Source of the DNA: a virus | IMG/VR virus record: IMGVR_UViG_3300005581_000120 | Coordinates: 1 to 25,066 of that record | Direction: 5' to 3' (one strand) | DNA length: 25,066 nucleotides | In this document: piece after piece, positions 13,426 to 25,066 of the stretch | How positions within the stretch are numbered: the stretch's first letter is position 1 | Layout: each line of letters opens with the position of its first letter | Translations under genes and position numbers: made by a program | Notes under the pieces: model-generated | What the model saw: only the letters and a program-made list of their open reading frames with translations | Told to the model about the DNA's origin: nothing | Database searches by the model: none

Positions 13426-14225
13426 TATGCAAGTCCTTTAATCGATTTGTCAAGAATATCGAACAACGACAACATGCCAACAGATGCAGCCTCAGCACCA
13501 TACTGCTGTTCTACCTGCACTTCGGCGGCGGTTTGCAGGCTTGGAGCCTTAACACCGCCAGTGCCTTCGGTGATTTCTTTGCCTTCGTAGGCTTTAACAA
13601 ACTTTTCAATCTCATCATTAGATACATCTCGCCCTAACATTTTGCGGGTTGCATCTTTGAACACAGCACGGATGTCTTCCTTGGCTGTGGTGCGAACACG
13701 TTTGCCACCAGACCCTTTGAAGGTGGTAAGAAACTGGCTGTATGCAACATCAGAAGTAACACCTTGTGCGTTTGCAAAACGAAGGAATTCTCCCATTGCG
13801 GAAAAGTCTTTAGTGTCAAAGCCTGTGGCGGATGGTCTTCCTGTGCCGTATAGTCCGCGTGCTGCAAGCGAGTTAAGGAATGCTTGGCGTTCTGCCAAAT
13901 CCATTTTTGCTAGTTCGGCGTATGCCTCTTTTGTTGGGTCATACTGTCCGCGGGTGATGATGCCTCTGGAGTCAACAAGGTTTTGACCGACATAACCGAA
14001 TGAGGTTGGTCCAGCGATTTCACGTGTGCGAGCAGAGGTGGTTTCGGTAGGGGAAACTGGGGTGGTGCTTACGACGTCGCCTTCACCTGGTGCAAACCCT
14101 GCAAGGGTTGCACCTTTAACTTGTCGTACTTGTAGTTTTTGGTTTGGGTCTAACCCTGATGTGCCTGCGGACAATGCAGGGGCGTCGGCAGCGGGCTGCG
14201 TTTGGTTTTGTGTGTCTTCTGACAT
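13425..14225 (-). CDS. internal virion / ejection-type protein (266 residues)
   Basis: The first about 70 residues are Pro/Thr/Gln-rich and disordered (MSEDTQNQTQPAADAPALSA). Then come GPTSFGYVGQNLVDSRGIIT, ELAKMDLAERQAFLNSLAAR (helix) and GLYGTGRPSATGFDTKDFSA. A helical region follows with KEDIRAVFKDATRKMLGRDV (about 180-200) and SNDEIEKFVKAYEGKE, and a final amphipathic helix. The 'D..A.FK.A....LGR.VS..EI..FV..Y' segment resembles a small fold shared by tail/internal proteins in related phages. It shares TAATG overlaps with the 1619-residue gene upstream and the 514-residue gene downstream. No enzyme motif is seen; role inferred from context. Confidence 0.5.
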   Translation of the reverse strand: MSEDTQNQTQPAADAPALSAGTSGLDPNQKLQVRQVKGATLAGFAPGEGDVVSTTPVSPTETTSARTREIAGPTSFGYVGQNLVDSRGIITRGQYDPTKEAYAELAKMDLAERQAFLNSLAARGLYGTGRPSATGFDTKDFSAMGEFLRFANAQGVTSDVAYSQFLTTFKGSGGKRVRTTAKEDIRAVFKDATRKMLGRDVSNDEIEKFVKAYEGKEITEGTGGVKAPSLQTAAEVQVEQQYGAEAASVGMLSLFDILDKSIKGLA

Positions 14226-17200
14226 TAGTCTACCTCTGCTGCAAGTTTATCTTCAAAAATACGGGCGAATTCTGGTGTTCTTTGGATAAGCACCTGTGCA
14301 ATACTACTCAACCAATCACGCAACGGTTCGGCTCGCGCGGAATCAAGGCTCTTAAGGTTGACTGCACCTGCTTGTGCAAGGGCTTTATCGCGTGCAGCAA
14401 TATACTCTTTGACCGCTTGAGCAACATCGTTATCAGCGAGACGCTCATCCTGTACAGCAAACTTGAGTTCGCTAACAAAGGATTCGAACTGTCCTGGGTT
14501 GAAATCTGCTTTAACAGGGAAACCTGGGTATTGGCTGTTGAGGTATCCGCGCCATTGGGTCAGCCAGTCACGTTGTTCTGTGCTGATTCTGTCACCCAAC
14601 TGGTTGCGCTTGGAACGATAGACGGCTGCACCTAAACGGTATTGGGCAGCGGCAACCATCTCTGGGGCTGACAGCCGTCGGCGTTGACCTTTTTGCAGTT
14701 GACGGTTCCAAGTTTCGAACGAGAAGTCGTCGCCGCCTGGGGCGAAGTATCCTGCGGTTTGGCTGTATTGGCTGAATAGGTCGCCGTTGTTACGTTGCCA
14801 GTTACCGAATGCTTCGGATGCTTCCAAGCCACCTGCAAGTGGTTCTGTCTTATGACCGAGATAGATGAATGCGTTTTCACCGAAGGTTTCGATGAAGCGT
14901 TGTACAGCGTTGTCTGGGTTTTCGCTTTGGAACTTATAAAACTCTTGAGCGATTGCTGATGCGGTGATGTCTCCGCCTTGGGTTTCTAGACCGAAATCGA
15001 TTTGTGGTGATGATGGTCCTGTGAACTGAAACAATGCTCGCAACCCTGCAAGAATTCGGGCTTTGCCTTTGGCATCTGCATAAAGTTTGGCTGTGTCGTT
15101 AGGGTCGGTCAGGTCGTATTCACCTGATGATGCTAGGTATTTAACTGTTTCACCGTAGGTGTTTCCAAAAATGGTTTCCATGTTGGTGGTATCAGCGCGT
15201 ATTGCTTCAATTCCACGAACCGCCCATTGTGGGGCAAGCGATGAGACACCCTTTTTGCCGTATGGAAGAACAATGCTTCGTACGAAATCAAGTCGTGGTG
15301 TGTCTGGGATTAGTTCGCTTGCTGCAATTTGTGCAACTGGACCTACACCTGGGACGCTCAATACCTGGAATGCGCCACGTACAGGGAACTGCAGGAGTGA
15401 GCCTGCCCATCCGCCAACTGGGAAGTTGAATACATGTTTGCCGCTTGTTGGGTCTTTGCCGAACCATCCTGCGCCGATGTTGTCTGGGTCTTCGCTGTTG
15501 TAGTTGACACCATTGTATGCGAGTTGGGTTTTACGGATTCGCGATGGGTCTTCGATTAGATAGCCAACATATTTGCCAAGGGTTTCACGGAATGCTGTGG
15601 CGAATGGCATCACTACACGAAGCATGTCTTCAACGTTGGATTTCTGTTGAGCGTTGTAGAGAATATCTTGTAGTTCTTGCACAGCCATTGATGACGCATA
15701 TTCTTCTAGTTCTGCAATGGTTGCGTCGCCTGTTGAAACCTTATTGAAGATTGCGTCGTAGTTGCGTTTGTTACCAACGTATTGTTCCACTGTAAGACGA
15801 GCGCGTTTTCCTTCTCGCGCTAGGTCCGCGTTTAGTTCATCAACGTAACGGGTGATGTTTGCGCGTAGAGTTGTTTGTTCTGTTGGGGATAGCAAGAATG
15901 CTTGGTCTGCTACTTCTTTATAAAAGGCTTGACGGTACAAGGGTGAACGTTCGAGACTTTGTGTCGAGCGTCCCACGAGACTGTTAAAGAACCACTTAAC
16001 TCCAGTGTCTAATGCTTGTGAGATTTTGTCCAAGCCAACTGTTTTGCCTTTTTCTACACGAACAGCAACTTTGACTTCTTCAGCAAGTTGTTGTTTTGCG
16101 CCTTTGTAATTGAGGTGTTCGCGGAGTGCTTCACTTCCCAATAGTGATGGGTCTTTTTCTTTTGTGGTAAAAGCCCTACCTGGTGCGACTGGTTGGATGT
16201 CTGCTATTTCACGGTTAATCATTGCCCCAGGATTAAATGGGTCTTCAATCATGCTGGTTTTAATTGAAACAATTACGCCCTGGCGGTCATCTGGGAGGTT
16301 AACCAAACCACCTATACCGCGTGGGTTGTTTGCTTCGTCTGTGGCATAGGTTACGGAGTCAAGTGTTTGTTCTACACGACGTGCAATTTCTGCTTCGTCT
16401 GTGAACTCACCAGCAACCTTAACGTTTTCCATAAGTGGAACACGGTCAAATGCAACGATGAATCTTAGGTCTTCGTCAACTACGCCTGTCGGTGAGGAAC
16501 CGCGAAGAATAGTTGATAACTTTGCTGTTGACAAACGGTCTATCCAGCCAATAAGAATTGCGTCATCGCCCGTGGACTTAAAAGCCTGAAAATATGGATT
16601 ACCGCTGTCGTCTGTAACTTTGACTCCGTTGCGGAAATTATCAATGACTATCCTCTTAGCCTCTTTACCATCTGCGGTGCTATTGAACCATTGGAGAGTT
16701 CTTTCTAAGCGTTCTTGTTGCGGAAGATTCCAGAACGAAGCAATACGTGAAAGGATTGGGTCTGTGGCAATTTGACCCAAGTTGTCTACGTATCCCGTGA
16801 TATGACCTTCTGGGTTTACTTGTCTTGAAACCTGCGCGAATTGTTCACTTCTATACATTGATTCATTAAAAGCCGCAGGGTCTTGAAGATGCTCATACAC
16901 AGAACGCTGTACCGATTTTTTATACCCATCAAAAATTGAGTTAATTTCTCCAGCACCATCTTCTAATGCTTCTTCGAAAGTAGTTGCAACGTTGACTCCA
17001 GTTGGGTCCATTTTCCCTGTGAGTGGTCCAACATACCTGCGCCCCATAACAGTTTGAATGGTGCGAAATGGGTGTGTAAAGAATGATTCGTAACCTCGTG
17101 CGCCAATACGAATGTGTGAGTCAATCATGTTTCTTACGATGTATCCGCCTGTAGCAAGCACCATTGGCTTCCATACTTCTTGCTGGAGTTGTTCCGCGGC

Positions 17201-19084
17201 TGCTATGAGTGCGCGTTCGCGACCATCTTTAGTGCGAAGGACATGACGGAATACTTTGTTTCCGCCAATCTTGGCTCCAGTTAAAGCGCGAAACTTTCGA
17301 TAGTCAGGGAGAACCTGCACATTTTCAATCATTTCATTAAGCGCGCTTGCGCCTTGCAGTTTTAGTTGGTCAAGTTGGTCTGGACTGTATCGTGCGAATT
17401 CTTGTGGGTCTGTGTAATCACGAAGGAATTGAATCATTCCGCCGTCGTCAAGTTTGCCGTTTTGGTCAACACTGTATGCGCGTAATTTTGCTTTGTCTGC
17501 ACGGATACTGTCTACCGCTTTTTTTGCTACTGCTTTATCTGCATCAGCATGTTCAGTAATTATTTCAAGAAAATCATCATATAATTTGTCTGCTGATTCA
17601 CGGCGCGCAGCAGTGTTTTCTAAACTAAACGTGTTCATTGCTTTACCCAAAAACTTTTCGTATGTTTCTGGTAACTGCTGGTCAATCTTTAGACCTCTCA
17701 TCCACTGACGGTACGTGGCAATTGACCTAGAGCGTTCCATGCCTGTTCCGTTAATGATGGCTTGCTGTGTTGGGATTTCTGACCACCATCGGCTGTTGCG
17801 GATTGAACGGTACAAAGGCACACGTTCACGAGCGTATTGGCGTGCAGCAAATGTTGCACCTGTTCCTGTTACCCCAGAAATAGACCGCGGAAGAATGCTT
17901 GCGTCTTTTTGTCCGCCAAGCACTGCTGCTGCCTCACCAATGATTGCTTTCACTTTGTCTGGTGAATCTGCGCGAGCGAGACGCATTGCTACTTCTGGGT
18001 CGATTTTGTCACCGAAGTCTTCAAGGATTTTTGCTGCGGCGCGACCTATTTGGTTGTCTGCGTCAACACCTGTTAGTTTGCGGCTGGTGATGTTGTCCGT
18101 TGCTGCTTTGGCGTGTTCAGCAAGGCGGTCTGCCATTCGTCCTGCGCGCGTGTTCTTGTCAAACCATGTATAGAACTTTGATTCAACAAATGCAATGCTT
18201 TCTTTCGCATCAAGTCCTGCTTCTCCGCGTGCGATTCGTGCAGCAGCGGCACCTGCTTCTTTGCTGATTTTTGGTATTTGGTCTGTTTGTACTATCCCGC
18301 GTTCAACAAGTTGTTTACCTAATGCTTGAGATATTTTACGAGTGCCAATCAAACCCTTAATAGTGTCATCTGCGTACGCACCTGTTTTTGCGGCTTTGAA
18401 TGCTTGTCCAAGGTAGAGCGTTGGGTCAGCAAAAATTTGTACGCCAGCATCAAGAAAACCTGACAGTAGTGAGTATTCTTTTGAACCTGGGGTAAACACT
18501 ATGTCTGCTGCACCACGTCCAATAGTCCATGCGTTGCCATTGATTGTTCCACGGAACTCTCGTGCTTTTTGTGCTTGTGTTTTTTGTGCTTCGCCACCGA
18601 AAAAGAAACCTGAGCCTGCGTCATTGCTCCCAGCCATCTGACCTAACTGTGTGGATGCGAACCATCCGTCTACACCTGCTGGGTCATTTCCTGAGAATGC
18701 TTGTGATGCAGCGTTTTGTACAAGGTCTGGCGTGAACTGCAATGCAGCAAACGTCCAACGTGATAATGCTTTTGCTTTACCGTAAACGTTTCGCTGGAAC
18801 CAACTACCTTGTTCTTGTTTTGGTTGAGGGGTGTTGGTCATCACATATTGTTTGCCAGCAACGTTTGACACAGCATCGATTGCTTGTTGTGATGCGTTTT
18901 GTTTCGCTAAGTCAAGAATGATGCGTGGAGAAATCCACGGTGACTGACGATAAATTTGTGAAGCGGCTTGTGCTTGCTGTGGTGTTACTGTTTTGGCAAA
19001 TTTTGCTTGCGCCGCAATGTTGGCTTGTGCGTCTTTATCGTTGTTCTCTTCGTCGACTGGGTCGAATGCACCGAATAATGCCAT
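14225..19084 (-). CDS. very large internal virion / ejection-type protein (1619 residues)
   Basis: The largest gene, about a fifth of the window. Residues 1-100 are Gln/Ala-rich helices (TVTPQQAQAASQIYRQSPWI), followed by a region with PGSKEYSLLSGFLDAGVQIF (about 200-220). The middle is mixed helical. Near 1036-1050 is VGRSTQSLERSPLYRQAFYK, a pattern I associate with very large virion proteins of environmental phages. Residues about 1150-1172 hold VVMPFATAFRETLGKYVGYL, and about 1220-1258 a Gly/Val-rich hydrophobic stretch (GGWAGSLLQFPVRGAFQVL) that could insert in a membrane. Size, position and membrane-active segments fit a DNA-ejection protein like T7 gp16 or, in size class, the N4 virion polymerase. 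I saw no polymerase or lysozyme motif. TAATG overlaps link it both ways. Confidence 0.6.
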   Translation of the reverse strand: MALFGAFDPVDEENNDKDAQANIAAQAKFAKTVTPQQAQAASQIYRQSPWISPRIILDLAKQNASQQAIDAVSNVAGKQYVMTNTPQPKQEQGSWFQRNVYGKAKALSRWTFAALQFTPDLVQNAASQAFSGNDPAGVDGWFASTQLGQMAGSNDAGSGFFFGGEAQKTQAQKAREFRGTINGNAWTIGRGAADIVFTPGSKEYSLLSGFLDAGVQIFADPTLYLGQAFKAAKTGAYADDTIKGLIGTRKISQALGKQLVERGIVQTDQIPKISKEAGAAAARIARGEAGLDAKESIAFVESKFYTWFDKNTRAGRMADRLAEHAKAATDNITSRKLTGVDADNQIGRAAAKILEDFGDKIDPEVAMRLARADSPDKVKAIIGEAAAVLGGQKDASILPRSISGVTGTGATFAARQYARERVPLYRSIRNSRWWSEIPTQQAIINGTGMERSRSIATYRQWMRGLKIDQQLPETYEKFLGKAMNTFSLENTAARRESADKLYDDFLEIITEHADADKAVAKKAVDSIRADKAKLRAYSVDQNGKLDDGGMIQFLRDYTDPQEFARYSPDQLDQLKLQGASALNEMIENVQVLPDYRKFRALTGAKIGGNKVFRHVLRTKDGRERALIAAAEQLQQEVWKPMVLATGGYIVRNMIDSHIRIGARGYESFFTHPFRTIQTVMGRRYVGPLTGKMDPTGVNVATTFEEALEDGAGEINSIFDGYKKSVQRSVYEHLQDPAAFNESMYRSEQFAQVSRQVNPEGHITGYVDNLGQIATDPILSRIASFWNLPQQERLERTLQWFNSTADGKEAKRIVIDNFRNGVKVTDDSGNPYFQAFKSTGDDAILIGWIDRLSTAKLSTILRGSSPTGVVDEDLRFIVAFDRVPLMENVKVAGEFTDEAEIARRVEQTLDSVTYATDEANNPRGIGGLVNLPDDRQGVIVSIKTSMIEDPFNPGAMINREIADIQPVAPGRAFTTKEKDPSLLGSEALREHLNYKGAKQQLAEEVKVAVRVEKGKTVGLDKISQALDTGVKWFFNSLVGRSTQSLERSPLYRQAFYKEVADQAFLLSPTEQTTLRANITRYVDELNADLAREGKRARLTVEQYVGNKRNYDAIFNKVSTGDATIAELEEYASSMAVQELQDILYNAQQKSNVEDMLRVVMPFATAFRETLGKYVGYLIEDPSRIRKTQLAYNGVNYNSEDPDNIGAGWFGKDPTSGKHVFNFPVGGWAGSLLQFPVRGAFQVLSVPGVGPVAQIAASELIPDTPRLDFVRSIVLPYGKKGVSSLAPQWAVRGIEAIRADTTNMETIFGNTYGETVKYLASSGEYDLTDPNDTAKLYADAKGKARILAGLRALFQFTGPSSPQIDFGLETQGGDITASAIAQEFYKFQSENPDNAVQRFIETFGENAFIYLGHKTEPLAGGLEASEAFGNWQRNNGDLFSQYSQTAGYFAPGGDDFSFETWNRQLQKGQRRRLSAPEMVAAAQYRLGAAVYRSKRNQLGDRISTEQRDWLTQWRGYLNSQYPGFPVKADFNPGQFESFVSELKFAVQDERLADNDVAQAVKEYIAARDKALAQAGAVNLKSLDSARAEPLRDWLSSIAQVLIQRTPEFARIFEDKLAAEVD

Positions 19085-21360: not shown

Positions 21361-23334
21361 TTATATCCATGAGGGTCGCCACTGTCTTGGCGGTCTTTTT
21401 ATCGTTGTGAGGTTCGGTGCATGCAGACATGCGAACCATAACGCCATTGCTAGGTCGGTTCCGTTCTTTTTGTCGCGGGTCCATTTGCAAAGTTCATCTA
21501 CTAGGGCAAGTGTCTTCCAGTTTCCGCGCATTGTGGGTAGCCGCAGTGAACCTGAGCGTACAAGTGTTGGGATGATTGCTTCAATTCCTAGGTTTTGGTC
21601 TAATTTGTTGCGGGCTGTGGTGTGGGGCAGGATGTTTACACCCCATAGGGCTGTCCATTTGCGAACAAAGTCGTGTTGGAGTAGGAATCTTTGGGCTGCG
21701 TTGATTTCTACGATAATGTGGGACACGGGATAGCCAAGATAGTTAGCGCGTTCGCACCATTCTTCAAGTATTCCTGTGTATGAGCCATCGGTTGTGTTGT
21801 ATCCGAGGAGGTTTTCTGCTGTGAGTTTGGTTCTTTGGATGTCTACGATGTGATACAGGTTGTGTTCTGGTTGGTAGAGCATCCAGATGAGTCCCCAGAA
21901 TTGGGTTGGGGATGGGTCAATGCTGATGATGGAGATAACTGGGGCGCGTAATCCTGGTGGGATGTGTTCTGGTAGACGTTCGTTGTCTATGCAGCCTTGG
22001 TAGAGTACGCCGTCTTGTCCTAGTCCGCCTGTAATCCATGTTCTATCAACAAGATATGTTTCGTCTGCGAGGTCTTCTTGTTGGTAAATGACACGGAACC
22101 GTTCATTGTTTGAAGAACGGAGATACGAGAGGTCTTTCCACGAGAGCCTTTTGGGGTCAAGTAGTGGTCCATCAGGGTAAGCAGGCGAGTCAAGACGCCT
22201 GGACTTAGGACCAGTATCCAAGTCTTCGTAGTACGCCTTGTAAATAATATGCTTATATTTTTGCTTCTTGGTGGGTTCAGGCTTCTCAAGCACATTGGAA
22301 GTTGTGACATCTTCGCCATCATAATCGTCTTCGTCTAGGTCATACGTTACTTTGTTCAGACAGTGGGCATACAGGTCGCCTGAGCCAAGCCTTTGTCCAA
22401 CTACAACCAAGGTGCCGCCTGGGTCTACACGTGCTTCTGCCATTGAGTCCCAGCGTTCTAGGAGTTTGTCACGGGCTGTGGATTCGCGTGCGTTTTCGGT
22501 AGAGGCTACGTCGTCAAAGAGGCAGAGGTCTGCACGGTGTCCAATGAACTCTGCGTCGATACCATATGCACGTACGGTTGGTTCTTTGTTGTCTAGCCCG
22601 TTGCCGTCTAGTTGTTCAACAATGAATTCTTCAGCACGCCATAGCGCACCTTTGTCTGCTGGTTTGAATCTCCCGTAGTCGATTGACAGGCAGCCCAGTG
22701 CATCTACTGCCAAACCCTTCTTAACTAGTTCTGTGTCAGCAAGCATAGGGTTGGGGCGTTCTAGGGTTTCGCGGATTCGGCGGGAGTACATTTTGGCTAG
22801 GTTTTGGTTGGCGGAGCCGATGAGTACACGGATGGCACGGTTCTTTACGATTGCCCATACCGCAACATCATGGAACAGGGTTGACTTACCAGCGCCAGGT
22901 GGGACGTTGAGACAGATAAATTCTTTTTCTTCGCTGTCTAGTGACATAACGATTTCTAGTGCGGCTTCAACTTGCCACGGTGCGGAGACTCGTCCTAGGT
23001 AATGTTCACGGAAGAATTGAAAGTCGTCTAATCCTCGTTGTGCTTCTGGGGTGAGACGGTCTAATGGTATCGCTGGTGGTAGGTCTGCTGCTTCAGCAAG
23101 GTCCATTGCGTCTTCCCATTGGACGCCACCCTGTCTGCGGGTGTGTTTGGTGAGTTCGATTGCTGCAACATCTGCGTTTGCTTTGGCTACTTTAGATTTT
23201 TTTATCCAGTTGTAACCTGTGTTGGGGTGTACACCTGCGATGCGGCATGCGTCTAACGTTGTGTGTCCTGAGTGGATTGCTTGCCAGAAACGTGCTTTGT
23301 CGTTTGCTGGAACCTTACGAATTCCCTGTGCCAT
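21361..23334 (-). CDS. terL: terminase large subunit with N-terminal HTH
   Basis: The 657-residue packaging motor. Residues about 18-50 (LDACRIAGVHPNTGYNWIKK) look like a helix-turn-helix of the kind normally found in small terminases. The ATPase follows: Walker A PPGAGKST (145-152), Walker B LCLFDD (270-275) and a coupling-type VVGQRLGSGD (311-320). The RNase H-like nuclease has D473 (ISIDPS), E543 (IVEIN) and D627 (GTDLAMALWF), the expected acidic triad. Length is at the upper end for the family. The ATG has no clear Shine-Dalgarno; a hairpin terminator lies 28 bases upstream, so a promoter or read-through must drive it. The portal follows 49 bases after the stop. Confidence 0.93.
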   Translation of the reverse strand: MAQGIRKVPANDKARFWQAIHSGHTTLDACRIAGVHPNTGYNWIKKSKVAKANADVAAIELTKHTRRQGGVQWEDAMDLAEAADLPPAIPLDRLTPEAQRGLDDFQFFREHYLGRVSAPWQVEAALEIVMSLDSEEKEFICLNVPPGAGKSTLFHDVAVWAIVKNRAIRVLIGSANQNLAKMYSRRIRETLERPNPMLADTELVKKGLAVDALGCLSIDYGRFKPADKGALWRAEEFIVEQLDGNGLDNKEPTVRAYGIDAEFIGHRADLCLFDDVASTENARESTARDKLLERWDSMAEARVDPGGTLVVVGQRLGSGDLYAHCLNKVTYDLDEDDYDGEDVTTSNVLEKPEPTKKQKYKHIIYKAYYEDLDTGPKSRRLDSPAYPDGPLLDPKRLSWKDLSYLRSSNNERFRVIYQQEDLADETYLVDRTWITGGLGQDGVLYQGCIDNERLPEHIPPGLRAPVISIISIDPSPTQFWGLIWMLYQPEHNLYHIVDIQRTKLTAENLLGYNTTDGSYTGILEEWCERANYLGYPVSHIIVEINAAQRFLLQHDFVRKWTALWGVNILPHTTARNKLDQNLGIEAIIPTLVRSGSLRLPTMRGNWKTLALVDELCKWTRDKKNGTDLAMALWFACLHAPNLTTIKRPPRQWRPSWI

Positions 23335-23425: not shown

Positions 23426-23774
23426 CTCTAGCAACCTTTACTCGGCTAGCACCAGGAGCAAGATTTGTTCTACTGCTTTTTGCAAGTGATTCAGCGCGTT
23501 TTTTATTTTCTTTTTTTACTTGGTTAAGTTGACGCTGAGCCAATCTTCCAGACACGAACAACCCCATACCCGATAGGTCTCCTGCGCGGGAATTGTATTC
23601 CCTTTGTGACATAAGTTCATCACCTGTTGAAGAATACCTTTGTGGACTGGTTTTTCTTTGTGAAGCAGTTTTGGCTTGACTTTTCTTTTGTGCTGCATCT
23701 GCTTTCATTTTTGCGCCGCGGTCAGAACCGCTTGCAGATGATGTTTTCTTAGAGACTGTTTTCTTTGTTGCCAT
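23415..23774 (-). CDS. 119-residue Lys/Ser-rich basic protein
   Basis: A basic protein, MATKKTVSKKTSSASGSDRG at the start, KMKADAAQKKSQAKTASQRK through the first half, RREYNSRAG-like and GLFVSGRLAQRQLNQ in the centre, and RVKVARGKK at the end. I chose the ATG at 23772-23774 because AAAGGAAAC lies 9 bases ahead; a longer frame up to 23849 would add 25 residues that overlap the upstream gene and carry no Shine-Dalgarno. The N-terminal half looks disordered. High charge suggests DNA or RNA binding, perhaps in the virion or on the host nucleoid. No family is recognised. A strong terminator follows. Confidence 0.75.
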   Translation of the reverse strand: MATKKTVSKKTSSASGSDRGAKMKADAAQKKSQAKTASQRKTSPQRYSSTGDELMSQREYNSRAGDLSGMGLFVSGRLAQRQLNQVKKENKKRAESLAKSSRTNLAPGASRVKVARGKK

Positions 23775-23790
23775 AATGTTTGTTTCCTTT
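23771..23790 (-). repeat. 20-base leader repeat, copy 1 (ribosome-binding site of 119-residue gene)
   Basis: The minus-strand 20-mer AAAGGAAACAAACATTATGG contains the Shine-Dalgarno, spacer and ATG of this gene. It is identical to 24521-24540 before the 118-residue gene. The bases on either side differ. Confidence 0.9.
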
Positions 23791-23816: not shown

Positions 23817-24168
23817 GTGAGGCAGGTCCACCGCCTGATTTCTTGTCACGCATGTATGTCGATACTTTTAATGGTTTCTTCAATGGGTTAAAACTGCTAT
23901 ATGCACGTGTGCTTGCATAAACCGATTTAGTATTAACATCGCTTTTTGCTGTTTTACCGATTGCAGTTAGTTTTGGTGTTCCGTTAACCGTGCTTCGCTG
24001 TGTGCTTTTAGTTAGTTGAAAGCCACCTTTACCAAAAACTCTTTCTGCTTCTTTAATAATTGCTTTGCGTTCTGCTGCTGTTGCGAAGCCACCTGTTCCT
24101 TGTGCGGCTTTGCGACCTTGGCGTACTGGCTGGTCCATGTTTCTTGGTAATGGTTTTTTAGCAGCCAT
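23806..24168 (-). CDS. 120-residue basic protein
   Basis: The protein opens MAAKKPLPRNMDQPVRQGRK, continues FATAAERKAIIKEAERVFGK (helix) and GKTAKSDVNTKSVYAST, and ends MRDKKSGGGPASRKK. The central segment with AERKAIIKEAERVFGKGGF is the only clearly helical, less charged part. The ATG overlaps the TAA of the 118-residue gene (TAATG), so the two are translationally coupled. No family is recognised. Like its neighbours it is Lys/Ala/Ser-rich, about 120 residues long and ends in Lys-Lys, suggesting a set of DNA-binding or virion-internal proteins; this is inferred from composition. Confidence 0.72.
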   Translation of the reverse strand: MAAKKPLPRNMDQPVRQGRKAAQGTGGFATAAERKAIIKEAERVFGKGGFQLTKSTQRSTVNGTPKLTAIGKTAKSDVNTKSVYASTRAYSSFNPLKKPLKVSTYMRDKKSGGGPASRKK

Positions 24169-24524
24169 TACTTCTTGCCTTTAGCAACTTTCTTGGCGTT
24201 TGCTGCTTTGCGGGTTGCTAATGCTCTTTCCTTGATTAGTCTTTCAGCATTTCGCTTAGCATTACCAGCGTTCAGTTGCACCTGTGAACGACGAACATCA
24301 GAAACATTAAGTCGATTCCCAGCATAACCACCACTTGCAGTAACGCCTTGACGCATCTGTTGTCCAGCGGTCTTAATGTTTTTTGCTCGTTCAGCAGCAT
24401 AACTAGCCGAGTCTATTTTTTGTGATTTAGATGCAGTTTGCTTCCCCATTCGTTCAGACTGTGCTCTTTTTGCTTCCATATCTACACCACTTCGTTTTGG
24501 TGCTGTTTTTTTCTTCATAGCCAT
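24168..24524 (-). CDS. 118-residue Lys/Ala-rich basic protein
   Basis: MAMKKKTAPKRSGVDMEAKR, then AQSERMGKQTASKSQKIDSA, AERAKNIKTAGQQMRQGVTA and a helical end (NAKRNAERLIKERALATRKA) closing KKVAKGKK. The last 30 residues resemble the end of the 119-residue protein (KKRAESLAK..., KVARGKK), so the two may be paralogues. A strong AAAGGA precedes the ATG, but the same bases can pair with an upstream GTTTCCTTT. It is first in the basic-protein block and follows the non-coding region. A nucleic-acid-binding role is likely from charge; no known family. Confidence 0.75.
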   Translation of the reverse strand: MAMKKKTAPKRSGVDMEAKRAQSERMGKQTASKSQKIDSASYAAERAKNIKTAGQQMRQGVTASGGYAGNRLNVSDVRRSQVQLNAGNAKRNAERLIKERALATRKAANAKKVAKGKK

Positions 24525-24540
24525 AATGTTTGTTTCCTTT
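24521..24540 (-). repeat. 20-base leader repeat, copy 2 (ribosome-binding site of 118-residue gene)
   Basis: Exact copy of 23771-23790, again spanning Shine-Dalgarno, spacer and ATG. Here the Shine-Dalgarno half also forms one arm of an inverted repeat with 24566-24574. Confidence 0.9.
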
Positions 24541-24574
24541 GTCTCTAGAGATGTATTTGGTACCTAAAGGAAAC
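24532..24574 (-). promoter_or_regulatory. hairpin able to hide a ribosome-binding site
   Basis: On the minus strand GTTTCCTTT (24574-24566) is complementary over 9 bases to AAAGGAAAC (24540-24532), the Shine-Dalgarno region of the 118-residue gene. The 25-base loop contains the palindrome TCTCTAGAGA (24542-24551), which could form an inner stem or a protein site. When paired, the ribosome-binding site is closed. The other gene with the same leader lacks the complementary arm. Confidence 0.55.
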
Positions 24575-24586
24575 TGTAACACATAG

Positions 24587-24895
24587 TTGCAACAAGGTGG
24601 CGGGTGTGTATACTTGGCGACACAACTGGCAAGACTCATGGCTGTACACCTGTTGCAAGGTGCGGGGCGTAAACAGGGGAACCTGGGTTGATACCTATTC
24701 TTTGAAGTAGGTAAGCAGCGTGATGAACGTCATCTCATCAAATAAAGGTGTCGGCTGAAATTAGCCACGGCGACCTTCCGTGGGGACGGGAACTGTGGGG
24801 GAGAGCAACGTACTGCTATTTGTAGAGTGCCGAACACAGCGAAACCATCTAGCGCGCCCGTTGGGCTTGCTCGCAAAGAAGGCGAAGCAATGTTG
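24587..24895. ncRNA. gene-free region with multiple helices: candidate structured RNA
   Basis: Part of the only gene-free stretch longer than 300 bases (24525-24895). Pairings seen: TTGCAACA (24587-24594) plus GGT with ACC-TGTTGCAA (24648-24658). TTGAT (24688-24692) pairs with ATCAA (24737-24741) and encloses two hairpins, ACCTA/TAGGT (24693-24712) and GATGA/TCATC (24722-24734), making a three-way junction. Further hairpins are GGCT/AGCC (24753-24766), CCACGG/CCGTGG (24765-24783), CTGTG/CACAG (24793-24839), GCCC/GGGC (24856-24866) and TTGCTCGC with GCG-AGCAA (24867-24890). The strand is not certain: A-rich GAAA-type loops favour plus, co-transcription favours minus. No known RNA class was recognised. 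Confidence 0.4.
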
Positions 24896-25066
24896 CTAAC
24901 AGGTGACACCCTCGTTCAGTGCTTCTTTTTTTTCCGTTTTTTTCTTCCTGCAAATATACGCCGTTGTATAACACTTGCCAACAGAAACAACAACCAAACC
25001 CACACCACCACCCACACTAATTAGCACTAAATTTAGAGCGACCACCGCAGCCACAAATGTGCATAC
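24896..25066 (-). CDS. C-terminal part of a small membrane protein, cut by window edge
   Basis: The minus strand is open from the window edge for 56 codons to TAG at 24896-24898. The visible protein is hydrophobic (VCTFVAAVVALNLVLISVGG, then VGLVVVSVGKCYTTAY) and then strongly charged (ICRKKKTEKKEALNEGVTC), as in a holin or small membrane anchor with a cytoplasmic basic tail. The other two minus frames hit stops within 16 codons. The runs of A on this strand are Lys codons. No start codon is forced in the window: GTG at 25052-25054 is possible, or the gene begins outside. It would be a lysis or host-membrane protein by character only. Confidence 0.5.
   Translation of the reverse strand, partial: VCTFVAAVVALNLVLISVGGGVGLVVVSVGKCYTTAYICRKKKTEKKEALNEGVTC

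Follow-up and report, generated by a model that had tools for sequence, protein, structure and literature searches.

A pseudoknotted and apparently undescribed RNA family encoded opposite the terminase operon in environmental viruses of putative actinobacterial hosts

The pRNA of phage phi29 is a non-coding RNA which works together with the packaging ATPase of that phage; to our knowledge it occurs only in phages of the phi29 type, which have a different ATPase. Highly expressed ncRNAs, orphan in function, have been described near the genome ends of the actinophages D29, Kampy and WC1, and the right-hand terminal ncRNA was reported to be toxic to M. smegmatis and E. coli (PMC10986025). GOLLD and ROOL are long, pseudoknotted orphan RNAs borne by phages and occurring in environmental DNA (PMC12286853). 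Here we describe an RNA of approx. 310 nt predicted on the plus strand of a viral sequence of 25,066 nucleotides (the whole analysed stretch, called the window below), opposite the terminase-portal operon (Table 1).

The RNA resembles GOLLD and ROOL in all the properties listed above. However, these RNAs are located near tRNA islands, whereas the RNA of the window lies beside terminase genes, has no Rfam match and reaches half or less of the typical GOLLD size. The opinion of an earlier note, made from the window alone, that the RNA is not a GOLLD is supported by the lack of any match to the GOLLD and ROOL covariance models and of any tRNA in the window (ARAGORN); no tRNA or tmRNA identity was found. 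The suggestion that the RNA may be new also gained support, since neither an Rfam covariance model nor a GenBank phage matched it. Rfam 15 (4,227 models) gave nothing at E ≤ 5 on the window and nothing at E ≤ 1 on 12 loci (11 with homologues), while the search with the RNA alone returned only mir-77 (E 0.37) and flavi_FSE (E 3.7), far below their gathering scores. A TCV_H5 match (E 3.5) to the P6 hairpin of one homologous locus, L188, looks alike and is at chance level. No match was obtained when 50,697 GenBank phage records were searched by blastn, and a short core query gave only sub-threshold hits (E 3 or higher), several of them inside annotated coding genes.

The terminal ncRNAs of D29, Kampy, L5 and WC1 are likewise actinobacterial-phage ncRNAs outside protein-coding operons (PMC10986025). 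Since the covariance model of our RNA (R1, see below) had no match at E ≤ 10 on the whole D29 and WC1 genomes, this precedent is an analogy only; those ncRNAs have been described by position and expression only (PMC10986025), and may be remotely homologous. R1 did not match ct2KA10 either. The likeness to the phi29 pRNA is that of a phage ncRNA with a possible link to DNA packaging; in contrast to pRNA, our RNA accompanies two unrelated TerL families, and no copy was detected in a part of one of them. The Rfam search at E ≤ 5, which may or may not have included a pRNA model, left the RNA without a match. No precedent for the RNA family was found in the literature searched (openly accessible papers and a minority of the preprints). 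Thus the family is apparently undescribed, while orphan structured phage RNAs as a kind are already represented by GOLLD, ROOL and the terminal ncRNAs of actinophages.

Table 1. Features of the RNA locus and of the divergent terminase gene in the window (positions in the window; the ends of the RNA are predicted)
Feature	Position	Strand	Basis
TerL of family 1, TerS-like HTH at its N terminus; at the start of the divergent late operon	21361..23334	-	phrog_38, phrog_4102
Predicted SigA/sigma-70-type promoter, TTGCAA-16-TATACT; predicted start about 24621	24587..24614	+	9/12 consensus matches
Whole non-coding RNA, ~310 nt, both ends predicted	24621..24933	+	promoter, covarying core, T-run
Conserved core, basis of R1	24639..24811	+	R1 match
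Hairpin P1	24641..24668	+	outer 24641-24643/24666-24668, inner 24647-24650/24659-24662
Hairpin P2, GNRA tetraloop 24678-24681	24674..24685	+	covariation
Hairpin P3 (24692-24697 with 24708-24713)	24692..24713	+	covariation
J3/4 AGCAG, proposed partner of the P1 apical loop	24714..24718	+	co-change
H-type pseudoknot: S1 24719-24721/24727-24729, S2 24722-24725/24736-24739	24719..24739	+	covariation
P6, imperfect hairpin AGGUGUCGGCU...GGCGACCU, bulged nucleotide X = 24772	24746..24776	+	RNAalifold, pair counts
Candidate lone tertiary pair 24772-24793	24772..24793	+	covariation
P7, variable hairpin	24778..24789	+	structure-blind alignment
Single-stranded GUGGGGG(A/G) motif, conserved	24795..24803	+	invariant in A1
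Putative intrinsic terminator: GAAGCA 24884-24889, TGCTTC 24920-24925, T8 24926-24933	24884..24933	+	read from sequence

A TerL search of IMG/VR yielded 319 relatives, of which 80 were retained. Immediately 5' of TerL and on the other strand, DNA similarity to the stretch was found again in relatives with TerL identities as low as 65%. A degenerate pattern taken from the P6 core brought 68 stretches and then at least 120 more. The 228 sequences were reduced to 101 representatives at 88% similarity. Two alignments were used, A1 (68 sequences, aligned without structure) and A2 (48 sequences, MAFFT). R1 was built on the core from 48 training sequences, the window included; it matched the window itself at 24639-24810 with 181 bits, and all 99 searched records at E<1e-3, 48 of the 99 being the training set. 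The contigs searched are mostly fragments, and since R1 is centred on the subfamily of the window, absence of a match in a record is weak evidence. A part of the alignment was picked by the pattern inside P6, so the invariance of P6 is inflated: its core sequence is fixed in these sequences and not in the TerL-selected loci. The selection leaves the covariation of P1, P2, P3, P7 and S2 unaffected, and the tertiary pair is unaffected only in so far as the pattern did not specify X. In a third subfamily (L329-L342) the exact GGTGTCGGCT motif is lost and P2, GGGUAGAC, GAGCAGCG and GUGGGGG are retained, thus the RNA family is independent of the search pattern.

Comparison of the homologues indicates that the plus strand at about 24621-24933 almost certainly encodes a genuine conserved structured RNA, whose fold has been maintained through compensating mutations in hundreds of viruses, all uncultured and presumably actinobacterial. 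The RNAalifold consensus of A2 contains 30 pairs, and 18 of these show compensatory double changes with the pair kept among the 48 homologues. In the full model (P1, P2, P3, S1/S2, P6, P7 and the single tertiary pair) standard pairs make up 91.3% on A2, with 295 double-changed paired cells as compared with 94 in shuffles, and the pairing drops to 28-46% once the partners are slid by 1-3 columns. Since related sequences can inflate the counts of double changes, a tree-aware test was written, in which the inferred substitutions were redistributed on a FastTree phylogeny (own implementation, not R-scape; 60 simulations). On A2 it gave eight pairs at E<0.05, all of them inside the model. On A1 the ten top-scoring pairs were all inside the model as well, including the pseudoknot pair 24725/24736; the tertiary pair 24772/24793 followed at E about 0.07, and the other pairs, listed up to E 0.3, were mostly neighbours of P2 columns, which is due to alignment phase. 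The covariation test proposed in the earlier note has therefore come out in favour of the RNA: the environmental homologues retain base pairs and carry compensatory changes, so the refutation by lost pairing failed.

The hairpin P1 is paired in 100% of the cells, with double changes; it has a conserved GUA/CGG internal loop and a UUGCA apical loop, and its pairs 24649/24660 and 24648/24661 are significant under the tree-aware null. P2 is also 100% paired (pair types GC, AU, CG and UA; E ≤ 0.017), with GGAA, GAAA or GGGA loops among the homologues. In P3, which is expanded by approx. 50 nt in many relatives, 97.6% of the cells are paired, double changes are present in 6 of 6 pairs and five pairs are significant in the tree-aware test. 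The sequence UUGC of the P1 loop goes together with AGCAG in J3/4, and UCGC with AGCGG in both records having UCGC. This co-change in the sequences is suggestive of pairing between J3/4 and the apical loop of P1. One phage has, besides its normal copy, a second, variant copy of the RNA (L267:4567-4708; G015:9566-9707), located among structural genes, with P1-P3, pseudoknot-like parts and a different P6; there a UCGC loop is likewise accompanied by GCGG.

A complement of the S2 strand of 3-6 bp was present downstream in all 82 parsable representatives (mean 4.6 bp vs 3.3 bp for shuffles). A helix of 3 bp is frequent in shuffles too, so S2 is better supported by its covariation: its pair 24725/24736 had E below 1/60 in two alignments, one of them structure-blind. 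In the structure-blind alignment four pairs of P7 were obtained at E ≤ 0.067. Positions 24772 and 24793 form G-C in 29, U-A in 16 and C-G in one of the 48 sequences and are unpaired in two, and the E value of about 0.07-0.08 in two alignments gives marginal support to a single tertiary pair. No consistent downstream pairing partner of the GUGGGGG motif was found (16.7 vs 16.7 for shuffles), and its pairing with a 3' C-rich strand was rejected, the shuffles being equal.

Taken as a single sequence, the stretch folds in an ordinary manner. The fold energy of the plus strand of 24525-24895 had a z of -1.8, with 3 of 100 shuffles equally good, that of the minus strand -0.2 and that of the predicted transcript (24620-24935) -0.8. 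These values are within chance and fold energy was dropped as a proof of the RNA; the ability to fold is thus insufficient alone, and the proof is comparative. Many helices do exist in the stretch, as the earlier note claimed, and at least one of the GAAA-like loops could be confirmed as a GNRA tetraloop (GGAA in P2). The TTGAT/ATCAA three-way junction was poorly kept, paired in 68% of the cells vs 62% for shuffles, and its 3' strand is taken by the better supported pseudoknot, with which it competes. The 8+3-bp closing stem does exist (about 24532-24541 with 24565-24574) but, lying upstream of the promoter, it does not belong to the conserved RNA; read on the minus strand, it forms the leader of the ORF 24168-24524. 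Whichever strand is read, each frame across the core (173 nt) is open in at most 8 of the 48 homologues, and since the core lengths among homologues are 168 and 171-179 nt, any reading frame is broken. Consequently, the lack of a convincing ORF was borne out, and the conserved ORF that might have spoken against the RNA was not found across the homologues.

The stretch 24525-24895 is non-coding as described, but the RNA itself is shifted downstream relative to these borders and has its predicted promoter within them. The promoter scores of the homologues had a mean of 7.9, compared with 6.6 for shuffles. In several lineages 42-58 nt separate the promoter from P1, and an additional GNRA hairpin is located there; the window is devoid of that hairpin. 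A long-loop GAAGCA/TGCTTC stem followed by a T-run is a layout common to the close homologues. Since the automated short-loop terminator scan does not list this terminator, the 3' end of the RNA is a predicted one. The RNA is likely to be transcribed separately and to act in trans, and not to be a cis element.

The minus-strand operon of the window, divergent from the RNA, starts with small Lys/Ser-rich ORFs and TerL (phrog_38, E=1.6e-59), followed by the portal gene; a phrog_4102 match at residues 13-53 of TerL corresponds to the TerS-like HTH. R1 matched 69 of the 80 TerL-selected loci, and in 69 of 69 testable ones the RNA was on the opposite strand, 5' of the terminase-portal operon. The 11 loci without a match are too short upstream of TerL, with at most 697 nt there and in ten of them less than 270 nt; the one with 697 nt (L071) belongs to a group in which the RNA is at about 640-870 nt. 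Among the pattern-found loci holding a TerL of this family (TerL-1), TerL was on the opposite strand and on the 5' side of the RNA in 156 of 156, mostly within about 1.7 kb. A second family, TerL-2, is Terminase_3/6C-like and accompanied by a P22-like portal, with SSB and WhiB genes between the RNA and the terminase; no BLAST similarity was found between the two families. When TerL-2 loci were chosen by protein alone, 35 of the 53 searched carried the RNA, upstream and on the opposite strand, mostly 2-4 kb away; the flanking genes in this lineage run on the strand opposite to the RNA. Since it is shared by two unrelated TerL families, the RNA does not depend on one particular terminase. In six TerL-2 records of 20-41 kb (L346, L348, L349, L351, L352 and L308) no copy was detectable with R1, and the RNA may be replaceable, diverged beyond R1, or lost there. 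The uncultured actinophages thereby gain an apparently undescribed, widespread family of structured RNA, for which the architecture is defined, a covariance model is at hand and the place in the genome is clear.

Two unusual records should be mentioned. A 32,987-base record without WhiB (L204) has the RNA core in an unrelated phage type, approx. 2 kb from a TerS-like gene of the same strand. Another one (G026, 79,213 bases; L269 and L270) contains two TerL families, each accompanied by a separate RNA, and is probably two phages of about 40 kb joined in the assembly.

WhiB genes were present in 39 of 41 long records (27/28 and 12/13), which points to actinobacteria as hosts; in the WhiB control a match was obtained only in Corynebacterium among 14 control genomes. 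A single pattern scan of bacterial genomes revealed none carrying the RNA. Three pattern matches in GTDB genomes seemed on inspection to be due to chance, with less than 16 bits or nothing with R1.

In most TerL-1 loci (including L012, L025 and L063) a conserved AT/C-rich DNA element, AAAAGAGTGAAAAC...GATAATACATATATA...C/G-run...GCCTCGGCAGACCCCCAGTT, follows the P6 motif on its 3' side at a distance of 180-490 nt; the window stops just short of this element. Its CTCGGCA part was present in 134 of 167 TerL-1 loci and in 0 of 5 TerL-2 loci. The element is a possible cos/pac site or origin; inspection of contig ends did not decide for a cos/pac end at this place. Palindromes of the form TTAGG-N4-CCTAA are enriched about 28-fold in the 1 kb 3' of the RNA (14 sites in 71 loci, vs 4 in all other sequence), and resemble the DtxR/IdeR iron box.

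As a whole explanation, we lean with moderate confidence towards a free-standing, untranslated folded RNA, made by the host and acting in trans for host takeover or late timing. The host SigA RNA polymerase would transcribe it separately, the transcript would end at the T-run, and the RNA would work through its shape, with a protein or some large machine of the host (RNA polymerase, ribosome or nuclease) as its binding partner, and thereby may aid the takeover of the actinobacterial host or the timing of late gene expression. Host takeover or late timing is favoured because the RNA survives terminase exchange, because a part of one TerL family is without it, and because actinophages have other orphan, highly expressed end ncRNAs, one of them reported toxic. 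The preference for a host-directed or expression-control role over packaging is nevertheless tentative. Since the address beside the terminase is so strict, the main rival is a packaging cofactor, acting with the terminase, portal or packaging site as pRNA does with its ATPase; such a role would fit the position of the RNA, which almost all the genomes tested have where the terminase operon begins, which even in the odd record L204 is near a TerS-like gene, and which in TerL-1 phages is just 5' of the putative cos/pac element. We regard it as unlikely, since the RNA is common to TerL families without BLAST similarity and has no detectable copy in some TerL-2 phages, while the DNA element follows TerL-1 and the RNA is found with both families; the limitation of pRNA to phi29-like phages also speaks against it. 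An undescribed class of pseudoknotted RNA, widely kept in small-genome environmental actinophages as a cofactor of virion assembly, packaging or host takeover and passing between phages with unrelated terminases, is a conceivable reading that we hold with considerable doubt.

The DNA element bears also on the origin suggested in the earlier note, where the transcript or an R-loop would prime or license replication at the AT-rich element 3' of the RNA. The element does exist in most TerL-1 loci and the palindromes are enriched beside it, but the putative terminator precedes the element, it was not found in TerL-2 loci that retain the RNA, and the conservation at the RNA level is stronger than a primer requires, which makes this role improbable. 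By analogy with GOLLD and ROOL, the RNA might form an RNA-only or RNA-rich assembly, a homo-oligomer held by loops and tetraloops. The pseudoknot, the GNRA loop, the conserved internal loops and the phage-borne orphan nature would suit it (PMC12286853), whereas the size, half or less of a typical GOLLD, and the lack of a tRNA island in the window (ARAGORN) render it equally improbable. The complex fold and the invariant core are typical of riboswitches, yet a role in cis on a downstream gene, be it as a leader (considered also in the earlier note), a riboswitch or an attenuator, is very unlikely: the RNA has its own putative terminator, the median distance from the P6 motif to the next same-strand ORF of at least 80 codons is 539 nt, and the flanking genes of the TerL-2 lineage are on the opposite strand. 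An ORF of this size lies within 100 nt of the motif in a quarter of the loci; these are overlapping, putative frames. A spacer that folds by chance, or a DNA site that is conserved as such, would agree with the ordinary single-sequence fold energies, but this reading is refuted by the covariation, the tree-aware test included, and by the double-changed cells and slid-partner controls given above, and its probability is close to negligible. The host-made, trans-acting RNA thus keeps our preference. Since the RNA stays at the head of the operon while the terminase is exchanged, the need for a folded RNA of approx. 310 nt is a testable question.

Two further observations concern the window. The minus-strand frame 14225-19084 encodes a protein of 1,619 aa without PHROG or Pfam match. 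A repeat, 91% identical in its two copies (23759-23790 and 24509-24540), forms a leader 5' of two small minus-strand ORFs; the second copy covers a part of the 8+3-bp stem and is next to a site resembling a ribosome-binding site.
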